A stretch of DNA of 33,694 bases from a virus, in IMG/VR virus record IMGVR_UViG_3300009183_000219, positions 1 to 33,694 of that record. One strand, given 5' to 3'. The translations under genes were made by a program, and so were the position numbers. This document shows, one piece after another, positions 23,440 to 32,604 of this stretch (the stretch's first letter is position 1; every line of letters starts with the position of its first letter). A model generated the notes under the pieces. It ran no database searches. It was not told the DNA's origin and saw only the letters and a program-made list of their open reading frames with translations.

Positions 23440-26400
23440 ATGGCAAAAACTGATTGGGAAGTTGTTTCTGAAGCCCCTGCTGCTAAAACTGCAAATAGTG
23501 GTTGGGAAGTTGTTTCTGAAGCCCCTGCTGTACCAACTAAATGGTCAGGAGCAACCTTATCCGAAAAAGATTTACTAGAACTTGAAGCTAACGCCAATAA
23601 AGGGGATGTCCAAATCCAAGACATCCTACGTGCGTACAAGGAAGCCAACCCTACCGGCAAACGCATAACCCAAGCCGAGTTTGCTCCTTCTGCAAAAGCC
23701 CCGGCCCCAGTACAGAAACAAGCTCAGGCGCAACCTGCGGCTACTTCTATGTTAGATAGCGTTGGCAATGTAATGAATACTGTACGGGACTGGGCAACTG
23801 GAGTTCCTATAAATGCTGCGGATGCGGGTAGGTCAGTATTAGGAAGTGGAGCACCGTCACCTGTATCTTCAGAGCAAAACTTAGTTAACACAGGCGCTGT
23901 AAACCCACAATATGTAGCTGCCTTAGAAGCAAAACTTAACTCAATGCCTGCGGCGCAAAGAGGGGTTGCGCTACAACAAGCTATTGCATCAGCGCCTGAA
24001 AACTCAGCCCAAGGACGCGCATTAGCGTTAATTGCTACAAAGTATGCGTCACTAAACAAAGTAACAAGCCCTACGCTGCGTAAGTTAGACCCTCGGCTTG
24101 AAGCGCAAAAAGACCGACTCATTGAGCAAGGGTTAAACCCCGATATTGCTGAAAGTCTAGCTAAACAAAGCGCCGAAGTTGGTGCAATACGTCCTAATGA
24201 AGGGCAAGTAAAAGAATCTCCAGACGAATATGTTAAAGCAGAATCTTATCGCGTACAAGGTAATCTTACCGGCATAGCAAAAACTGGAGAAACGCTAACA
24301 CGAGGGGCGCTAAAAGCTGGGCTTTCCTATGAAAGAGGCGTGCGAGGTGTTAATTTGTTTGTGGGCGACATGCTTGGTTTTGATACGTCTACAAACAAAG
24401 CACGGTTAAATTCTATTGACCAATTTGTTCAAGGAATGGGTGAGCAAAGTTCTAAGCCCCTTAACCTGTTTGAAAGTGCTATTACTTCTATAGGCCAACA
24501 AGCCCCTACGCTTATTGGCGGGGCTTTAACGGGTTCAACACCTGCGGTGCTAAGTGCTATGTTTGCACAATCGTTTGGTCAAACCTACGATGAAGGTGCG
24601 CGTAAAGGACTTGATACTGTTAATAACGCGGCTCGTTCAGCTATGTACGCAGCATTAGAGGTGTTAGGAGAAATGCCGGGTCTTGGTGCCAATATTAAAG
24701 GGCTTAAAGCCGCAGCAAACGGCATGCCTTTAGACCAGATTGCTGGATTTTTTGCTAGAGCTTTAAAGAAAGATGCACCGGGAGAGTTGGTTACTTACGC
24801 TGGACAGTTTGCTGTAGACAAAGGTTACGGCATGAACCCAGAAGCTGGTATTGCCGACTTTATTTCAGGCGCGGCTGATACTGTACTTTCTACTGTTCTT
24901 CAAGCTGGAATAATGACTGGTAGTGGAATAGCAGTGGGTAAAGGGGTAAACAAACTTCGAGCCGTACAAGACAAAATTAAAAGCGGGCAGCGTCAAGCGT
25001 ATAAACAAGACACAAGCTACGAAGGGCTAGCCAGTCTTATTGCGCAGTCTAAAGGGTTTGACTTTAGAGAAAAACATGCGCTGGGTGACCAAGGGTATAA
25101 AGTTGGTGAGTTTTTACGAGCCGAGCGTGAAGGCCCAGCACTGGGCGAAGCTAAAGTTGATACGGGTGCTGAAGGCCCAACACTAGGTGAAGGTCAAATT
25201 AGTACTACTGGTACGCGAGTAGAACCTACGTTAGAAGGCGGTGCAGCTACAACTGCGGCTGCTCCTGTTGGCCCCACACCTGAGGAAATTGAAAAGACCG
25301 CTGCGGGGTTTATGGCTGCTGGAGTTCCAAGAGCCCTTGCGTTAAAGATGGCAGAAAAGCAGTTAGTTGAACAAACAACAAAGACTACCGCAGCAGCACC
25401 TATATCACAAGACTTTTCTAAATTAGCTGCGTGGCCTGATGTTCTGTTAGCGGAAACACTTAAGCTACAGCAAAGTAAGCCTGAGCCCAATCAACCTCTG
25501 GTCGATGCAATTCAAGTTGAAATACAACGCCGAGCGCAAACCCAAGGAGCCCCAAATGCTACAGGAACTGAGTCCGCACCAAGTGGAGGAAGCGCTGGCG
25601 TGGCTGGCGAATCCGTTGCCGGTCAACCCACCGGAGGATTTGAAACACCTACACGAAATGGAGTGGTTTCTTCTGAGCCGAATGCTGGAGTCACTACTAC
25701 AGGAGAAATTTCACAGCCCCCTACAGTAACCACAGGAGCCCCCACAAGTGTCATTACGCCCACTAAAACCAAGCAAACAGAAACGCAAGGACAACCAGCG
25801 CCCGTTACCAAAGTAAAGCACTCAATTGCGCAAAACGATGAAGGTAAGTGGGATTATTTGGTAGACGGTGAAGTAGTTGGAACCTACGATACCAAGCGTC
25901 AGGCTAATACCAAGGCCATACTTGAGCGTTCTATAGTTAAGGGCGATACGGATGTAATTGCTAAAAACCAGCAAGCGCACGATGCTGCAATGACAACAGC
26001 ACGGGGACGCCCGTTAAAGTTATTCCCAAAAGCTAAAGTTGATGTTGGTGAGACTGTTACTGAAGATACTGATACTGGAACTACTGATACTGAAACTACT
26101 GAGACGGCAGAGGGGGAACCTGCTGTTGGTGAGACTGCTAAACCCGAAGCACCAATTGTGCTGCAAGAAGCAAAGACGGTTAGGGGTGATGCGCTTACAG
26201 GGCCATCTACAAAAGTTAAGCTGTCCGATGGTAGTGAGCATGAAATTAACCGACTAGACTCTACTACCAGTATGGGGCTACCGGGGTGGCACGATGTAAA
26301 TGCCGATACGCAAAACAGCTATTTAGCGGACACCAAAGCTGAAGCTATTAAGGAACTAATCCGTCGACAGGAAGAAAAGCGCACGGCTGCTGCTAAAGCT

Positions 26401-29400
26401 CCAACCAAAGAAACCAAAGGTAAGAAAGCCCCGTCTGCTGCCGACGCGCTTGCTGTTGAAACTCAAGAAAAGCTCCAAGAGCTTGAAGACCTGCTTGGGA
26501 ACTACAACACCAACCCAGATGTTGCCGCTGCAAAAGCTTCGGCGCGAAATATCAACCGTATAGCTAATGACCCTGCGCAGCCTAAAGCAGTCAGGGAACG
26601 CGCCAAAAAAATACTGGTGGATGAGATTGATACTAAAGACCTTGTTGAGGGTTCAAGGTATCTTTCTTCTAAGTTTACGCAAAGCCCAGCCGACAAAGCT
26701 TTTGGTAAATTTACAACCGCGTCGCAAGCTATATCGCACATCCTAAGAACTGGTACAAAGTTTCAAAAAACTTTAGCAGCACGCCTACGTGGTTTTGTGC
26801 AGGGCGTTAATTTTGTAGTAGTGGAACAGGGCCAAGCACTGCCTGAAGGTTTGGCTAAGAAGAGCGCAGAGTGGAGCCGCTCCATTGCTATGTATGACAG
26901 AGCAAGCCGTACTATCTATGTGCGCGGTGAGTCATACGGCAATAAACAAGGCATTAACCACGTTACCGTACTGCACGAACTACTGCACGCAGCTACTGCT
27001 AGGAAAATAGACCTAGCTATGAAGGCTATCAAAGACGGGGTTAGTTTGGACTCCCCGTTGGTTCAAGCTGCCCTTACCTTACACCGCACAATGGAGAACG
27101 CCGACACTGCCCTCAGGGAGTTGGCGCGTCAAGGGAAGTTAACTGAAGACTTAGCCACCCTAGCTGTGCATGGTAAAGCCTTTAGCGATACGCATGAGTT
27201 CTTGGCCTACGGCATGACCGACAAGACCATGCAGGATTTCCTGCTTAAGACTAAAGGTGTTGAGGGTGATACGCACCTATTTAATCGGTTTGTTGATAGC
27301 ATGCGCCGTATGTTCGGCATGGGCAAAGACTCGATTAATGCGTTGTCTGACCTAATCTTGGCAACCGACCAACTCTTAAGCGCCCGTGAAATTGGCGGCA
27401 GCATCAAGGAAACTGGGACTCATGCGGCTACTAGTGAAACCAGAGTACAGCCCTCAGCAGACGTTGGGCGCTTAGCCAAGATGCTCGGGTCTAAGCTATA
27501 CGGCACTCCTGACAATATAGCTGCGGTATCCATAAAGGAACTGTTCCAGAATTCTTTTGACGCTATTAAGGGCGCAATAGAAAAGGGTACGCTAAAGTCA
27601 GGCGACATCAAAATAAAAATTGATTCTAGTACTCGCTCTATACAGATAATTGATAACGGCCTTGGCATGCCAACCAGCGTAATGGGTGGTCAATTTTTAA
27701 CCATTGCTGGAACAGTCAAAGAAACTAAACGTGCATCGGGTGGACTTGGCGTTGCCAAAATGTTGTTCCTATTTGAGAACAAAGAGCTAGAGGTAGTGTC
27801 ACTGCGTGATGGTGTTGTATCCCGCATGGTTACTACTGGGGATGACTTAAAAGCTGCATTAACTGACCCCAAGCGAGGACCTATGATCCAGACTACATCC
27901 GATGCAGATGTAGTAGCACGTTACACCAAAGAACTTTTTCCTGACGGGCATGGTACATCCGTACGTGTTCAAGTCCCAGAAACGTATATTAATGAGTCTA
28001 ATGGAGAAGAGTTAAAAATTCCTTTTAGTTCATATGAACTAGAAAGAGCCCCAGTATTACTTGATAGCCCTTTATTTGACAACATAAAAGTTTCTATTGA
28101 TACCGGATACGGCTTAGATACGTTGCCTATTGGTGCTAATTTCCCAGTTGATAAATTTACTCCGTTTGCTAATGTTAAATTTGCTTGGGGTACTGCGCGT
28201 ATATACGTTGGTAAGGATAAACTTTCTTTCGTTGGAAGTACTCGTGGAAATGCACACATACTATCTAATGGCTTATGGCAGTTTAATCTTGTATTAAAGG
28301 ATAAACCGGGTTTTGATGGTGAAGCCATTAAACGTGATTTTTATATAGACGTTACCCCCAATGAAAATGTAAAGCCTGAGGATGCCGGATATCCATTTGA
28401 CTTAAACCGCCAAAACTTTTCTAAAGTAGCTGATAAAGACTTTAAAAAAATATTTAATTACGTAACGGCTATTTACAGCCAACTTGATTTAGCCTCCAGC
28501 GTTAAAAACTTTGGCACAGCACAATACGTTAACAGCAATGGTACGTTGACTAAGGCCGAAACACTGGAACCAAAAGTACCTATATCCGATAACGCATTTA
28601 CGGTTATTAAACCCGACGATAAAGTAGAAGTGCGCGAAGGCGTGCTATACGTTAATAACCGAGCATTACCTGAATTAACCGAAGAAGACTTAAAGAAGAC
28701 TGGTATACGTCTTGAAGAGTTAACCATCCCTCAAGATGAGGTTGATCCTAACAAGGTAATGATCCACGACAATACAGTACTTAAATCTTCTAAATTACCA
28801 AAAGGGGAATTAATACCTATAGCCGAACTTGATGCTTTAGTTGATAAAAATCCGGGTAAATATAAATTAGAACTGTTGCCCGAACCTGATGTCAGGTTTA
28901 CGGTTGTCAATGACGACGGGTCTGTAATGGTGTTTGAAGACACAGCAGAAGAAATTTTTGCTGATCTACAAGGGCTTGGGTTTATACCTAAAGAAACGGA
29001 AAACAAAGAAAAGTCGTTATCTGATGCAGCGCGGGAAAAGTTTGGCGATAAAGCTTATAACAAATATATTTCCGTTATCGGTGAAACGTTCCACAAACTA
29101 CGTGATGCGCTAGTAAACGTAAATAGCGATTATGCTGGCCTTAGCACACAAGTTATTGGCGTTAGCTTAGATAAAAAATACTACGGCGTTAGTATTATGA
29201 TCCCGTTCAAGGGGATGTTTATTAACCCCGCGACTACGGAGTTACAGGGCACCCCTGCACAAATTGCAGTGTCTTTAATAGGCACAATGACCCATGAGCT
29301 TGCGCATTTTAAGCAAAGAAATCATGGTGCTAGCTTTGCAACTGAAATGCAAAAAGTAGTTACGTTACTTGACACCCACCCATCTTTTAGCTTACAACAG

Positions 29401-32400
29401 GTTAAGGCAGACTTAACCTTACACATTGCCGACAACATTGAAATATTTAATTATTTAAACAAGGAGTTCCAAGATGAAAATCTCGACGCTCGTGGAAACC
29501 GCTTCCAAGACGCTAGCTTCGAACAAATCGGAGATGAAGGCTCTGTTGAGCCAATGGAAAGCACTAGCGGAACAGGAAAAGGGCAACCCAGCGTACCCCA
29601 AGGCGCTGGGCAAAGCACTACAGGTGCTGGACAAGTCGGCGTCCCCAAAGGAGTTGGTGGAAAAACTCCGCGAACTGGAAAAGAATTAGACACAGACGTA
29701 TCCAAAGCTGTTAAAAAAGTTGCAGAGTCTAGGAAAGGCGTTGCGCTAGGTGATGCTCTAGCTGATCTATCTAAATGGCGTGACCCCCGTTATCTGTGGG
29801 GGGAAATTAATGGTGTATGGGACTCGCTTAGCGACTCGGCTAGAACTTTTGTTTCCCATTTCTACGATAGCGAAGCCCTTGCTTATGCTGGGCCGGGGGA
29901 CATCATTACTGGGCTAAAAGACGCGCATGAAGCAATTCAAAAAATGTCAGGCTCGGTGCAAACATATTTGCGTGGTGTAGCCAACGTAGCTGATGAAATT
30001 GTTGACTTCTACCGGGCTGAACCTAAAAAACGCCAAGCCTTTGAAGACCTTGTGCATGCGTCTACGCTTGCTAAATACGACCCAGCCAACCCAAATAACG
30101 TTCTGCGGAACAATGAATTAGACAATGATTACGCAGCATTAGGCGATAAAGGGCAAAAAGCTTACAAGCGCTTACGGGACTACTACAAGAGCATGAATGC
30201 TGTTAAGCAGCACTTGCTGGAGGAAAACCTTAGCAATCTAAAACTGTCTGCCGCTGCCCGTAAAAAACTATTGTCAGACGTTAGGGTGCTGTTTGAAGCC
30301 GACAAGGTAGAGCCTTACTTCCCATTAGCCCGCTTTGGGGATTTTGTCTTAGAGACAGGGAAAAAGGGTTCACACGCCACTTACAGGTTTGATACAAAAA
30401 AAGAACGTGACCGTGCAGCTAGAGAATTTGCAAGGCAGCAAGGTAAAAGTGTGGATGACCTTAGGAAAGATGGAGAGCTACGCATAACCGAAGATTTAAA
30501 CGGTGACGGCTTGCGGATTAATATTGAAGGGACTAGCAAGCTACTAAAGGCCGCATACGCTGCGGTAGATTCGGCTAGCGTAACCGACCCTAATATTAAG
30601 CAAAAGCTTAAAGATGACTTATACCAAGCGTACTTGGCGGCTATGCCAGAGAACAGTGTGCGCAAAATGTTTGTGCATCGCAAAGGCACACCGGGGTTTA
30701 GCTCCGATGTTCTTAGGGCAGTCAATGACTCTGGTTCACGAATGGCTCGGGCGTTTGCCAAACTTGAGCATGCCAATGCTATACGTCAAGCCATAGACTT
30801 ATCAAAACGGCAGCTTGAGGGCAATGAAAAATATACCGCGTTTTTTATGCGGATGAACGAAATTGCATCAGAAGCATTACAACCTAGGATTCCAACAGGC
30901 AAAGAAAAATGGCTAGACAACGTTGCAAATGTTATTGTTAAAGCGTCTTTCCTGCGCAACCTGACAAGCTGGTCTTCTGCAATTATGCAGCCAATGGATA
31001 TTTTGCTAAAAGGCGCTCCGGTATTGACGGGTAATCATGGGCCTAAAGCAATGGCTGAGCTATCTAAGATGATGAAGCTGCATAATCAATACGGGGTTTT
31101 GGAAAAAATGCCTAATGGCACTATGCGCTTCCGTGCTCCTAGTATTGAGTTTGCCAAAGGGCTTACCCCCCAAGAACGTTTAGCAGTTCGTGACATGGTA
31201 GATGTGTACGGTGTAACCAGAGACACACTAGCAAATGAAGTGTTCAGCCAAGCTAGGGAACCGGCTACTAAAATAAACAGTAAAGCATTTGAGTTAGGTA
31301 AAGACGCAGTACATAATTTAATACTCGGCGGGCTTATGCACCACGGGGAGCGGTTATCACGTGAGATTATTGCGCTTACTTCTTTCCGTCTAAACATGGC
31401 TGAGTTACAAAAAGCCAACCCCAATGACCCAACAAATTACGATGAAGCAGTAAAGGCAGCAATACGGGAAACAAATGAAGTACTAGGTAACTACAACGCT
31501 AACAATAAGCCTATGCTAATGCGTGGGGCTGGTGGGCGGCTTGTAACCATGTACAAGTTTTTCCCGCTTGTTACTACCAAACTATTGGTGACTAACTTCT
31601 CCAAAATGCTTCCTATGTTTAACAAGGAAGGTAAGGCAGCAGCAGCTACTAAGTTCTTTGGCGTATTAGGTACGCATACATTATTCGGTGGCCTTGTGGC
31701 ATTGCCTGCGTTTAGCTTAGTGATGGGGCTACTGCAAGCTGCTTGGGAAAAATGGCAAAAAGACCCCGATGCTCCCGATGAGATGCGGGACATTGACTAT
31801 GAAACTTGGTGGCGTACTGTGTGGTTGCCTGAAAACTTAGGCAGCACAGGGTTAGCTCAGTTAGCAGAATACGGTTTACTAAATAAGTTAACTGGGTTTG
31901 ATATATCCAGCCGTATATCCTTGAACGATATGTGGTTCCGTGATCCGCAGCCGGGTAAAAATGCAAAAGAAACAGCCTTAAACTGGGGGCAAGTAATGTT
32001 TGGCGCTGCTTGGACTACTGGGCTAAATGCGATTCAAGGTATTGACCTTATGACCCAAGGCGAGTACGAACGTGGGCTGGAAAAACTAACCCCTGCTTCT
32101 ATAAGCAAATTAATGGTAGCCCATAGGTACGCAACTGAAGGTGTGCAAACACCCCAAGGCGTGCAGTTAATAGAGAAGGGTAAAGTACCAAAGAGCGAGC
32201 TTGTCGGTCAAGCTATTGGCTATGCTCCAGCACGAGTAGCAGAAGCCCAAACTACGGCGTTTAAAGCGCAAGCTGCTGAAAAAGTCATTGTGCATGAACG
32301 GGAAACAATTATGGGTACGTTGAAAAACTCATTCCGTAAGTCCATCGACCCTAACAAAGATACTGAAATACATGAACGCTTTGACAAAATATTCCAAGAC

Positions 32401-32604
32401 ACCTTGGACAAGGCCACAGACTTTAGCCTACGTAACCCTGAACGCGAAATTAAAGGTGAGGAAATTACCAAGGCTCTAAACGATGAGTTGAAGAGGGTAG
32501 TTGAAACTGAAATGGGTAGCGGTATTAAGATGACTAAAGAAAACGCTAGGTTACTTTCACCTTCAATAGAAAAAGCAGAAAGAGCTTTGGCTCCCTACAA
32601 ATAA
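23440..32604 (+). CDS. 3054-residue polyvalent protein: two zincins plus GHKL ATPase
   Basis: Visible domains in order: a tandem N-terminal WEVVSEAPA motif (residues 5-30); helical virion-type region; low-complexity linker (about 560-790); small beta/alpha domain with KWDYLVDGEVVGTYDTK (about 800); zincin 1 with HELLH 1179-1183 and THEFLAYG (E1253 a possible third ligand); GHKL ATPase with N-box ELFQNSFDAI (E1367, N1371, D1374), DNGLGM 1405-1410 and GGLGVAK from 1434; zincin 2 with HELAH 1952-1956 and H1962 in NHGASF; linker (about 2010-2085); and a long helical C-terminus with a hydrophobic stretch near 2740-2775. It starts one base after the previous stop without a Shine-Dalgarno, so translation is likely coupled. 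Probable ejected internal protein acting in the host; activities are predicted, not shown. Confidence 0.88.
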   Translation: MAKTDWEVVSEAPAAKTANSGWEVVSEAPAVPTKWSGATLSEKDLLELEANANKGDVQIQDILRAYKEANPTGKRITQAEFAPSAKAPAPVQKQAQAQPAATSMLDSVGNVMNTVRDWATGVPINAADAGRSVLGSGAPSPVSSEQNLVNTGAVNPQYVAALEAKLNSMPAAQRGVALQQAIASAPENSAQGRALALIATKYASLNKVTSPTLRKLDPRLEAQKDRLIEQGLNPDIAESLAKQSAEVGAIRPNEGQVKESPDEYVKAESYRVQGNLTGIAKTGETLTRGALKAGLSYERGVRGVNLFVGDMLGFDTSTNKARLNSIDQFVQGMGEQSSKPLNLFESAITSIGQQAPTLIGGALTGSTPAVLSAMFAQSFGQTYDEGARKGLDTVNNAARSAMYAALEVLGEMPGLGANIKGLKAAANGMPLDQIAGFFARALKKDAPGELVTYAGQFAVDKGYGMNPEAGIADFISGAADTVLSTVLQAGIMTGSGIAVGKGVNKLRAVQDKIKSGQRQAYKQDTSYEGLASLIAQSKGFDFREKHALGDQGYKVGEFLRAEREGPALGEAKVDTGAEGPTLGEGQISTTGTRVEPTLEGGAATTAAAPVGPTPEEIEKTAAGFMAAGVPRALALKMAEKQLVEQTTKTTAAAPISQDFSKLAAWPDVLLAETLKLQQSKPEPNQPLVDAIQVEIQRRAQTQGAPNATGTESAPSGGSAGVAGESVAGQPTGGFETPTRNGVVSSEPNAGVTTTGEISQPPTVTTGAPTSVITPTKTKQTETQGQPAPVTKVKHSIAQNDEGKWDYLVDGEVVGTYDTKRQANTKAILERSIVKGDTDVIAKNQQAHDAAMTTARGRPLKLFPKAKVDVGETVTEDTDTGTTDTETTETAEGEPAVGETAKPEAPIVLQEAKTVRGDALTGPSTKVKLSDGSEHEINRLDSTTSMGLPGWHDVNADTQNSYLADTKAEAIKELIRRQEEKRTAAAKAPTKETKGKKAPSAADALAVETQEKLQELEDLLGNYNTNPDVAAAKASARNINRIANDPAQPKAVRERAKKILVDEIDTKDLVEGSRYLSSKFTQSPADKAFGKFTTASQAISHILRTGTKFQKTLAARLRGFVQGVNFVVVEQGQALPEGLAKKSAEWSRSIAMYDRASRTIYVRGESYGNKQGINHVTVLHELLHAATARKIDLAMKAIKDGVSLDSPLVQAALTLHRTMENADTALRELARQGKLTEDLATLAVHGKAFSDTHEFLAYGMTDKTMQDFLLKTKGVEGDTHLFNRFVDSMRRMFGMGKDSINALSDLILATDQLLSAREIGGSIKETGTHAATSETRVQPSADVGRLAKMLGSKLYGTPDNIAAVSIKELFQNSFDAIKGAIEKGTLKSGDIKIKIDSSTRSIQIIDNGLGMPTSVMGGQFLTIAGTVKETKRASGGLGVAKMLFLFENKELEVVSLRDGVVSRMVTTGDDLKAALTDPKRGPMIQTTSDADVVARYTKELFPDGHGTSVRVQVPETYINESNGEELKIPFSSYELERAPVLLDSPLFDNIKVSIDTGYGLDTLPIGANFPVDKFTPFANVKFAWGTARIYVGKDKLSFVGSTRGNAHILSNGLWQFNLVLKDKPGFDGEAIKRDFYIDVTPNENVKPEDAGYPFDLNRQNFSKVADKDFKKIFNYVTAIYSQLDLASSVKNFGTAQYVNSNGTLTKAETLEPKVPISDNAFTVIKPDDKVEVREGVLYVNNRALPELTEEDLKKTGIRLEELTIPQDEVDPNKVMIHDNTVLKSSKLPKGELIPIAELDALVDKNPGKYKLELLPEPDVRFTVVNDDGSVMVFEDTAEEIFADLQGLGFIPKETENKEKSLSDAAREKFGDKAYNKYISVIGETFHKLRDALVNVNSDYAGLSTQVIGVSLDKKYYGVSIMIPFKGMFINPATTELQGTPAQIAVSLIGTMTHELAHFKQRNHGASFATEMQKVVTLLDTHPSFSLQQVKADLTLHIADNIEIFNYLNKEFQDENLDARGNRFQDASFEQIGDEGSVEPMESTSGTGKGQPSVPQGAGQSTTGAGQVGVPKGVGGKTPRTGKELDTDVSKAVKKVAESRKGVALGDALADLSKWRDPRYLWGEINGVWDSLSDSARTFVSHFYDSEALAYAGPGDIITGLKDAHEAIQKMSGSVQTYLRGVANVADEIVDFYRAEPKKRQAFEDLVHASTLAKYDPANPNNVLRNNELDNDYAALGDKGQKAYKRLRDYYKSMNAVKQHLLEENLSNLKLSAAARKKLLSDVRVLFEADKVEPYFPLARFGDFVLETGKKGSHATYRFDTKKERDRAAREFARQQGKSVDDLRKDGELRITEDLNGDGLRINIEGTSKLLKAAYAAVDSASVTDPNIKQKLKDDLYQAYLAAMPENSVRKMFVHRKGTPGFSSDVLRAVNDSGSRMARAFAKLEHANAIRQAIDLSKRQLEGNEKYTAFFMRMNEIASEALQPRIPTGKEKWLDNVANVIVKASFLRNLTSWSSAIMQPMDILLKGAPVLTGNHGPKAMAELSKMMKLHNQYGVLEKMPNGTMRFRAPSIEFAKGLTPQERLAVRDMVDVYGVTRDTLANEVFSQAREPATKINSKAFELGKDAVHNLILGGLMHHGERLSREIIALTSFRLNMAELQKANPNDPTNYDEAVKAAIRETNEVLGNYNANNKPMLMRGAGGRLVTMYKFFPLVTTKLLVTNFSKMLPMFNKEGKAAAATKFFGVLGTHTLFGGLVALPAFSLVMGLLQAAWEKWQKDPDAPDEMRDIDYETWWRTVWLPENLGSTGLAQLAEYGLLNKLTGFDISSRISLNDMWFRDPQPGKNAKETALNWGQVMFGAAWTTGLNAIQGIDLMTQGEYERGLEKLTPASISKLMVAHRYATEGVQTPQGVQLIEKGKVPKSELVGQAIGYAPARVAEAQTTAFKAQAAEKVIVHERETIMGTLKNSFRKSIDPNKDTEIHERFDKIFQDTLDKATDFSLRNPEREIKGEEITKALNDELKRVVETEMGSGIKMTKENARLLSPSIEKAERALAPYK
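23454..23530 (+). repeat. 29-bp direct repeat, 48-bp period, encoding WEVVSEAPA twice
   Basis: A 29-base sequence at 23454-23482 (TTGGGAAGTTGTTTCTGAAG...) recurs without mismatch at 23502-23530, giving two copies of WEVVSEAPA 16 residues apart. Exact nucleotide identity means a recent duplication or ongoing slippage-type exchange. It lies at the extreme N-terminus of the giant protein, where it may act as a packaging or docking signal. Confidence 0.9.
25556..25729 (+). CDS. nested 57-residue gene in +1 frame of giant gene
   Basis: This ORF lies wholly inside the 3054-codon gene, one base out of frame. It starts at ATG 25556 with AAGGAG at 25544-25549, six bases upstream. The product, MLQELSPHQVEEALAWLANP then LPVNPPEDLKHLHEMEWFLL and SRMLESLLQEKFHSPLQ, is a well-composed helical protein, and codons such as CTG, GAG, GCG and CCG dominate. 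In contrast the giant gene's own frame here is a Gly/Ser/Thr/Pro linker. The ALAWLxNPxP..P..LKHL..xEW..L..LL..LLxEKxxSPL pattern resembles small phage proteins I remember, which I could not verify. Function unknown. Confidence 0.65.
   Translation: MLQELSPHQVEEALAWLANPLPVNPPEDLKHLHEMEWFLLSRMLESLLQEKFHSPLQ
29474..29689 (+). CDS. nested 71-residue gene in +1 frame of giant gene
   Basis: A second ORF within the giant gene, again in the +1 frame. AAGGAG at 29461-29466 is seven bases before ATG 29474. The product (MKISTLVETASKTLASNKSE, MKALLSQWKALAEQEKGNPA, YPKALGKALQVLDKSASPKE, LVEKLRELEKN) is a basic helical protein with a plausible two- or three-helix bundle. Third codon positions are rich in G/C. 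The overlapping giant-gene frame encodes a Gly/Gln/Thr/Ser/Pro linker (SGTGKGQPSVPQGAGQST) with the look of an out-of-frame reading. No family recognised. It ends at TAG 29687-29689. Confidence 0.65.
   Translation: MKISTLVETASKTLASNKSEMKALLSQWKALAEQEKGNPAYPKALGKALQVLDKSASPKELVEKLRELEKN

Follow-up and report, generated by a model that had tools for sequence, protein, structure and literature searches.

Can the DNA for a flexible linker of a giant phage protein be, at the same time, a complete small gene? This question is raised by IMG/VR record IMGVR_UViG_3300009183_000219, of which positions 1 to 33,694 were analysed on one strand (this stretch of 33,694 nucleotides is the window). In the window, structural phage genes are located to the left of a giant gene, and a short ORF, nested gene 2, lies wholly within the main frame of this gene, which runs on at both sides (Table 1). 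An earlier reading, made from the sequence alone, described this ORF as a 71-codon +1-frame gene for a basic helical protein, with AAGGAG seven bases before its ATG and embedded in a low-complexity linker directly after a second zincin, and this description is borne out by the coordinates and by the predicted properties of the product. The linker is a Gly/Ser/Pro/Gln-rich stretch just 3' of the HELAH motif, the bases of AAGGAG double as K-E codons of the giant protein, and the product has a computed pI of 9.5 and a mass of 7.8 kDa and is predicted by AlphaFold2 (with 45 homologues) to be all-helical, consisting of four helices (pLDDT 92.6). As discussed below, the comparison of related loci suggests, with a probability of roughly 0.9, that nested gene 2 is a true, separately initiated protein-coding gene inside the giant gene.

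Table 1. Coordinates of the features in the window and of the third nested family in other loci.
Feature	Position	Strand	Description
Giant polyvalent (DarB-like) protein	23440..32604	+	3,054 aa, main frame
Nested gene 1	25556..25729	+	57-aa protein, +1 frame, AAGGAG before ATG
HATPase (GHKL-type) region	27472..27939	+	Residues about 1345-1500 by profile; Pfam hits weak
Zincin 2	29050..29472	+	HELAH, weak YgjP/WLM-like similarity; directly 5' of nested gene 2
Shine-Dalgarno AAGGAG	29461..29466	+	7 bases 5' of the nested gene 2 ATG
Main-frame low-complexity linker	29473..29688	+	Overlaps nested gene 2
Nested gene 2	29474..29689	+	71-aa basic four-helix protein (predicted), +1 frame of the giant ORF; ATG at 29474, 71 codons, stop at 29689
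Third family loci	L103:1979-2287, L104:2246-2563, L108, L110, L111, L112

The giant protein belongs to the polyvalent proteins (Iyer et al. 2017, PMC5512222), being large, multidomain, zincin-containing and phage-encoded. It matches the DarB-like family phrog_10089 (E=6.9e-52 over residues 2272-3030) and, towards its C-terminus, Pfam LPD39 (33 bits, cut-off 27), and it has two HExxH zincin-like segments. Zincin 2 has the HExxH motif and scores under the curated cut-offs (YgjP-like, 17.1 bits versus 26; WLM, 13.1 versus 26), and the HATPase region is borderline, also under the cut-offs (HATPase_c_3, 23.0 bits versus 25; HATPase_c, 22.4 versus 26.4). The HATPase-zincin segment takes in residues from about 1330 to 2012. 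Such zincins have been proposed to process polyvalent proteins; genes in another frame are not mentioned in the same paper, as far as a search of its text for the terms overlapping, nested and out of frame shows (Iyer et al. 2017, PMC5512222).

The length of the nested gene 2 ORF by itself is unremarkable. When synonymous codons are re-drawn with the giant protein kept fixed, its frame is still open in about 10% of the trials, and 47% of them yield, at one place or another in the giant gene, a +1 stretch of 77 codons or more between stops. The case made from a single sequence is therefore weak, and the earlier statement that the arrangement is unlikely by chance holds only once loci are compared; it is from this comparison, not from the single sequence, that the proof of nested gene 2 comes. 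The +1 identity relative to the synonymous-codon null was dropped as proof, because control ORFs exceed that null too.

A homology search with the 71-residue product, as suggested in the earlier reading, finds homologues in ten loci directly, and a search with the zincin finds 75 loci in IMG/VR that have the upstream HATPase-zincin block in common. When an iterated profile is used, a nested gene 2 homologue is found to be encoded in 65 of these 75, and in all 58 distinct loci that were checked it is in the +1 frame, right after the zincin. The remaining ten (L091-L100), which have a diverged HATPase-zincin block, have no detectable copy. Nested gene 2 was never found away from this block in the collections searched, and a stand-alone gene as the ancestral state was rejected, since searches of viral contigs, bacterial genomes and named phages turned up no copy standing by itself; a match in Aminobacter phage Erebus is a chance match, since the polyvalent gene is absent there. 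By this co-occurrence, nested gene 2, the HATPase domain and the second zincin of the giant protein form one cassette. The giant ORFs of the nested gene 2 loci run on downstream except in L076, where the giant ORF ends soon after nested gene 2. In L076 and L093 the giant ORF stops shortly 3' of zincin 2 and is followed by more long ORFs, as if split. L004-L006 have the giant gene and neither the HATPase-zincin 2 block nor nested gene 2; these are close relatives of the giant without the whole block, a case of modular gain or loss inside one ORF.

The selection acting on the two frames was assessed by a codon-constraint analysis of the overlap, also proposed in the earlier reading, for twelve non-overlapping (independent) pairs of loci. 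The differences at codon positions 1/2/3, numbered in the main frame, amount to 253/167/622 in the upstream flank, 460/286/848 in the downstream flank and 213/123/92 in the overlap, where the pattern is inverted, position 1 differing more often than position 3 in each of the 12 pairs. Along the alignment of the giant proteins, third-position change drops at residues 2001-2080 (nested gene 2) and at residues 681-760 (nested gene 1). The earlier reading had named free decay of the +1 frame under a conserved main frame as the outcome that would speak against it, and the opposite is seen: across 48 sequences, the +1 identity in the overlap (0.43) is higher than the main-frame identity (0.31), whereas for five control +1 ORFs the main frame is the better conserved one. 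The +1 frame is under purifying selection. It has no stop within nested gene 2 in any of the sequences, compared with at least 45 expected if the main frame alone mattered, and under this main-frame-only null the start codon is kept in at most 17 of 30 sequences. When, conversely, the nested protein is held fixed, at least 155 main-frame stops are expected in 30 sequences and none is observed, from which it follows that both frames are coding. The linker of the giant protein evidently tolerates many sequences, which makes the main frame the more permissive one across nested gene 2. On this comparison of sequences, nested gene 2 is a real gene overlooked by annotation.

The signals for its translation are conserved as well, in agreement with the earlier claim that the nested gene has its own ribosome site. 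In the 36 sequences with an alignable start, the start codon is always ATG or GTG and is always preceded, at a spacing of 4-10, by 4 or more bases that match a Shine-Dalgarno, the background rate for +1 ATG/GTG codons in the same giants being 14%; matches of at least 6 bases are present at 24 of the 36 starts, compared with a background of 0.8%. At distant loci the Shine-Dalgarno is made of other bases, with other main-frame residues. In the window, both nested starts have AAGGAG and the giant start has no clear Shine-Dalgarno. Because the giant start is without a recognisable site, it is plausible that the small nested proteins are more abundant than the giant protein.

The earlier reading also claimed that there are two nested cases with the same architecture, and nested gene 1 is indeed conserved too, although its conserved start with a Shine-Dalgarno is at 25556 and not at the ORF-list start, 25505. 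The retrieved ORFs include 72 homologues in the +1 frame, with redundant loci counted in, the codon-position pattern is again inverted (25875/23137/17567; 42 sequences, all pairs), and the AlphaFold2 model is helical (pLDDT 82.7). Nested gene 1 is found without zincin 2 in L004 and L006. Judged by its conservation, nested gene 1 is also a real gene, equally so.

A third +1 family (MNLNNW...HWKE...) is found inside DarB-like giants of cultured phages, in 21 matching records, and in none of these is it annotated as a separate gene. Its carriers include LASTA, Pavtok and Itty13, and they are Klebsiella, Erwinia, Pseudomonas, Vibrio and rhizobial phages. Atu_ph08 is a further cultured phage with a +1 gene in its DarB-like giant. 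Seven of the loci checked have an uninterrupted giant frame, and in all of these the family is +1 relative to it; purine-rich sites are present 5' of the family's start. Like nested gene 2, it is a +1-frame, unannotated ORF of a DarB-like giant; there is no detectable sequence relatedness among the third family, nested gene 1 and nested gene 2. In phage PBC5 (L107), the giant is split by a frameshift and orf33 ends in the +1 frame of the third family, which probably accounts for phrog_938 ending with third-family sequence; the split itself is probably an artefact of the record or its annotation. In the giant of Serratia phage Parlo there is also a 129-aa +1 ORF (L105:4244-4633), with homologues in ZX1, Skulduggery and Vibrio phages and with the frame checked in Parlo alone; it is a candidate for a fourth nested family. 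Descriptions of nested gene 2 or of the other nested families were not found among the open-access papers searched.

Two explanations do without a separately initiated gene. Nested gene 2 could be an open frame that arose by chance and persists because the giant protein is conserved: +1 frames that stay open over such a length are frequent in the giant gene, and a conserved main sequence by itself makes alternative frames look homologous. This is, however, contradicted by the inverted codon-position pattern in every pair and by the better conservation of the +1 frame, and it is considered extremely improbable. It could also be that programmed frameshifting from the zincin generates a shortened giant that ends in a different, helical C-terminus, and no free small protein. 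In most loci the +1 ORF opens 15 bases 5' of the start, leaving a short window for such a shift, and in PBC5 the frame that is open upstream leads on into the third family's +1 frame, for which a sequence error is the simpler reading. However, ATG or GTG and the Shine-Dalgarno are retained at a fixed spacing, there is no common shift-prone motif by eye, and L078, L082 and L089 have no shared open window: a +1-frame stop lies immediately 5' of the nested ATG, which excludes entry by frameshifting at these loci. Frameshifting is thus unlikely, if somewhat less so than a chance frame.

With nested gene 2 taken as a separately initiated gene, ribosomes would enter it on the message of the giant gene, at a Shine-Dalgarno and start codon that belong to nested gene 2, and the product would be a free four-helix protein more abundant than the giant. 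This small protein may bind or regulate the HATPase-zincin module, such that the peptidase or ATPase is held in check, or the giant chaperoned, until packaging or injection. A regulatory or accessory role is suggested by the exclusive occurrence of nested gene 2 with the HATPase-zincin block, and, with such zincins proposed to process polyvalent proteins (PMC5512222), a small partner that restrains or guides the processing is the tentatively favoured reading. A free, abundant partner or regulator of this module remains a tentative reading of the product. Its model has nothing significant in Foldseek searches against PDB and BFVD, its Pfam and PHROG matches are all weak or sub-cut-off and were rejected, and none of these four collections gives a fold or family match that hints at its role. 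It is about as likely, at close to even odds, that the product of a real gene acts elsewhere, on the host or on virion assembly, independently of the zincin and merely linked to the cassette. Unrelated nested families occupy other linkers of the same giants, nested families are also present in DarB-like giants of cultured phages that are not matched by the HATPase-zincin 2 profiles, and the pairwise distances of nested gene 2 track those of the zincin no better than those of other giant domains, so that the co-occurrence may be mere linkage; that nested gene 2 keeps to the HATPase-zincin block in the collections searched argues against this.

Nested, or overprinted, phage genes are known from E within D of phiX174 and from Rz1 within Rz. 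As in these cases, an entire small gene, nested gene 2, is read in a different frame of a larger one and has a ribosome site to itself. Unlike in these cases, the surrounding gene is a giant multidomain polyvalent gene, with two nested genes of unrelated sequence in its flexible linkers, and the families of the nested products match nothing curated in Pfam or PHROGs. The balance of the evidence leans slightly towards giant polyvalent phage genes being, in general, hidden polycistrons: their flexible linkers would also serve as small genes, each with a ribosome site, and several unrelated families of free companion proteins would be made along with the giant protein. Such genes escape standard annotation, since the place where they lie has already been assigned to another gene. 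Dozens of uncultured phages share two hidden families that are unrelated to each other, and a third family is present in cultured phages, which opens the claim to an immediate bench test, and the low-complexity linkers of giant phage proteins would be reread as coding space.
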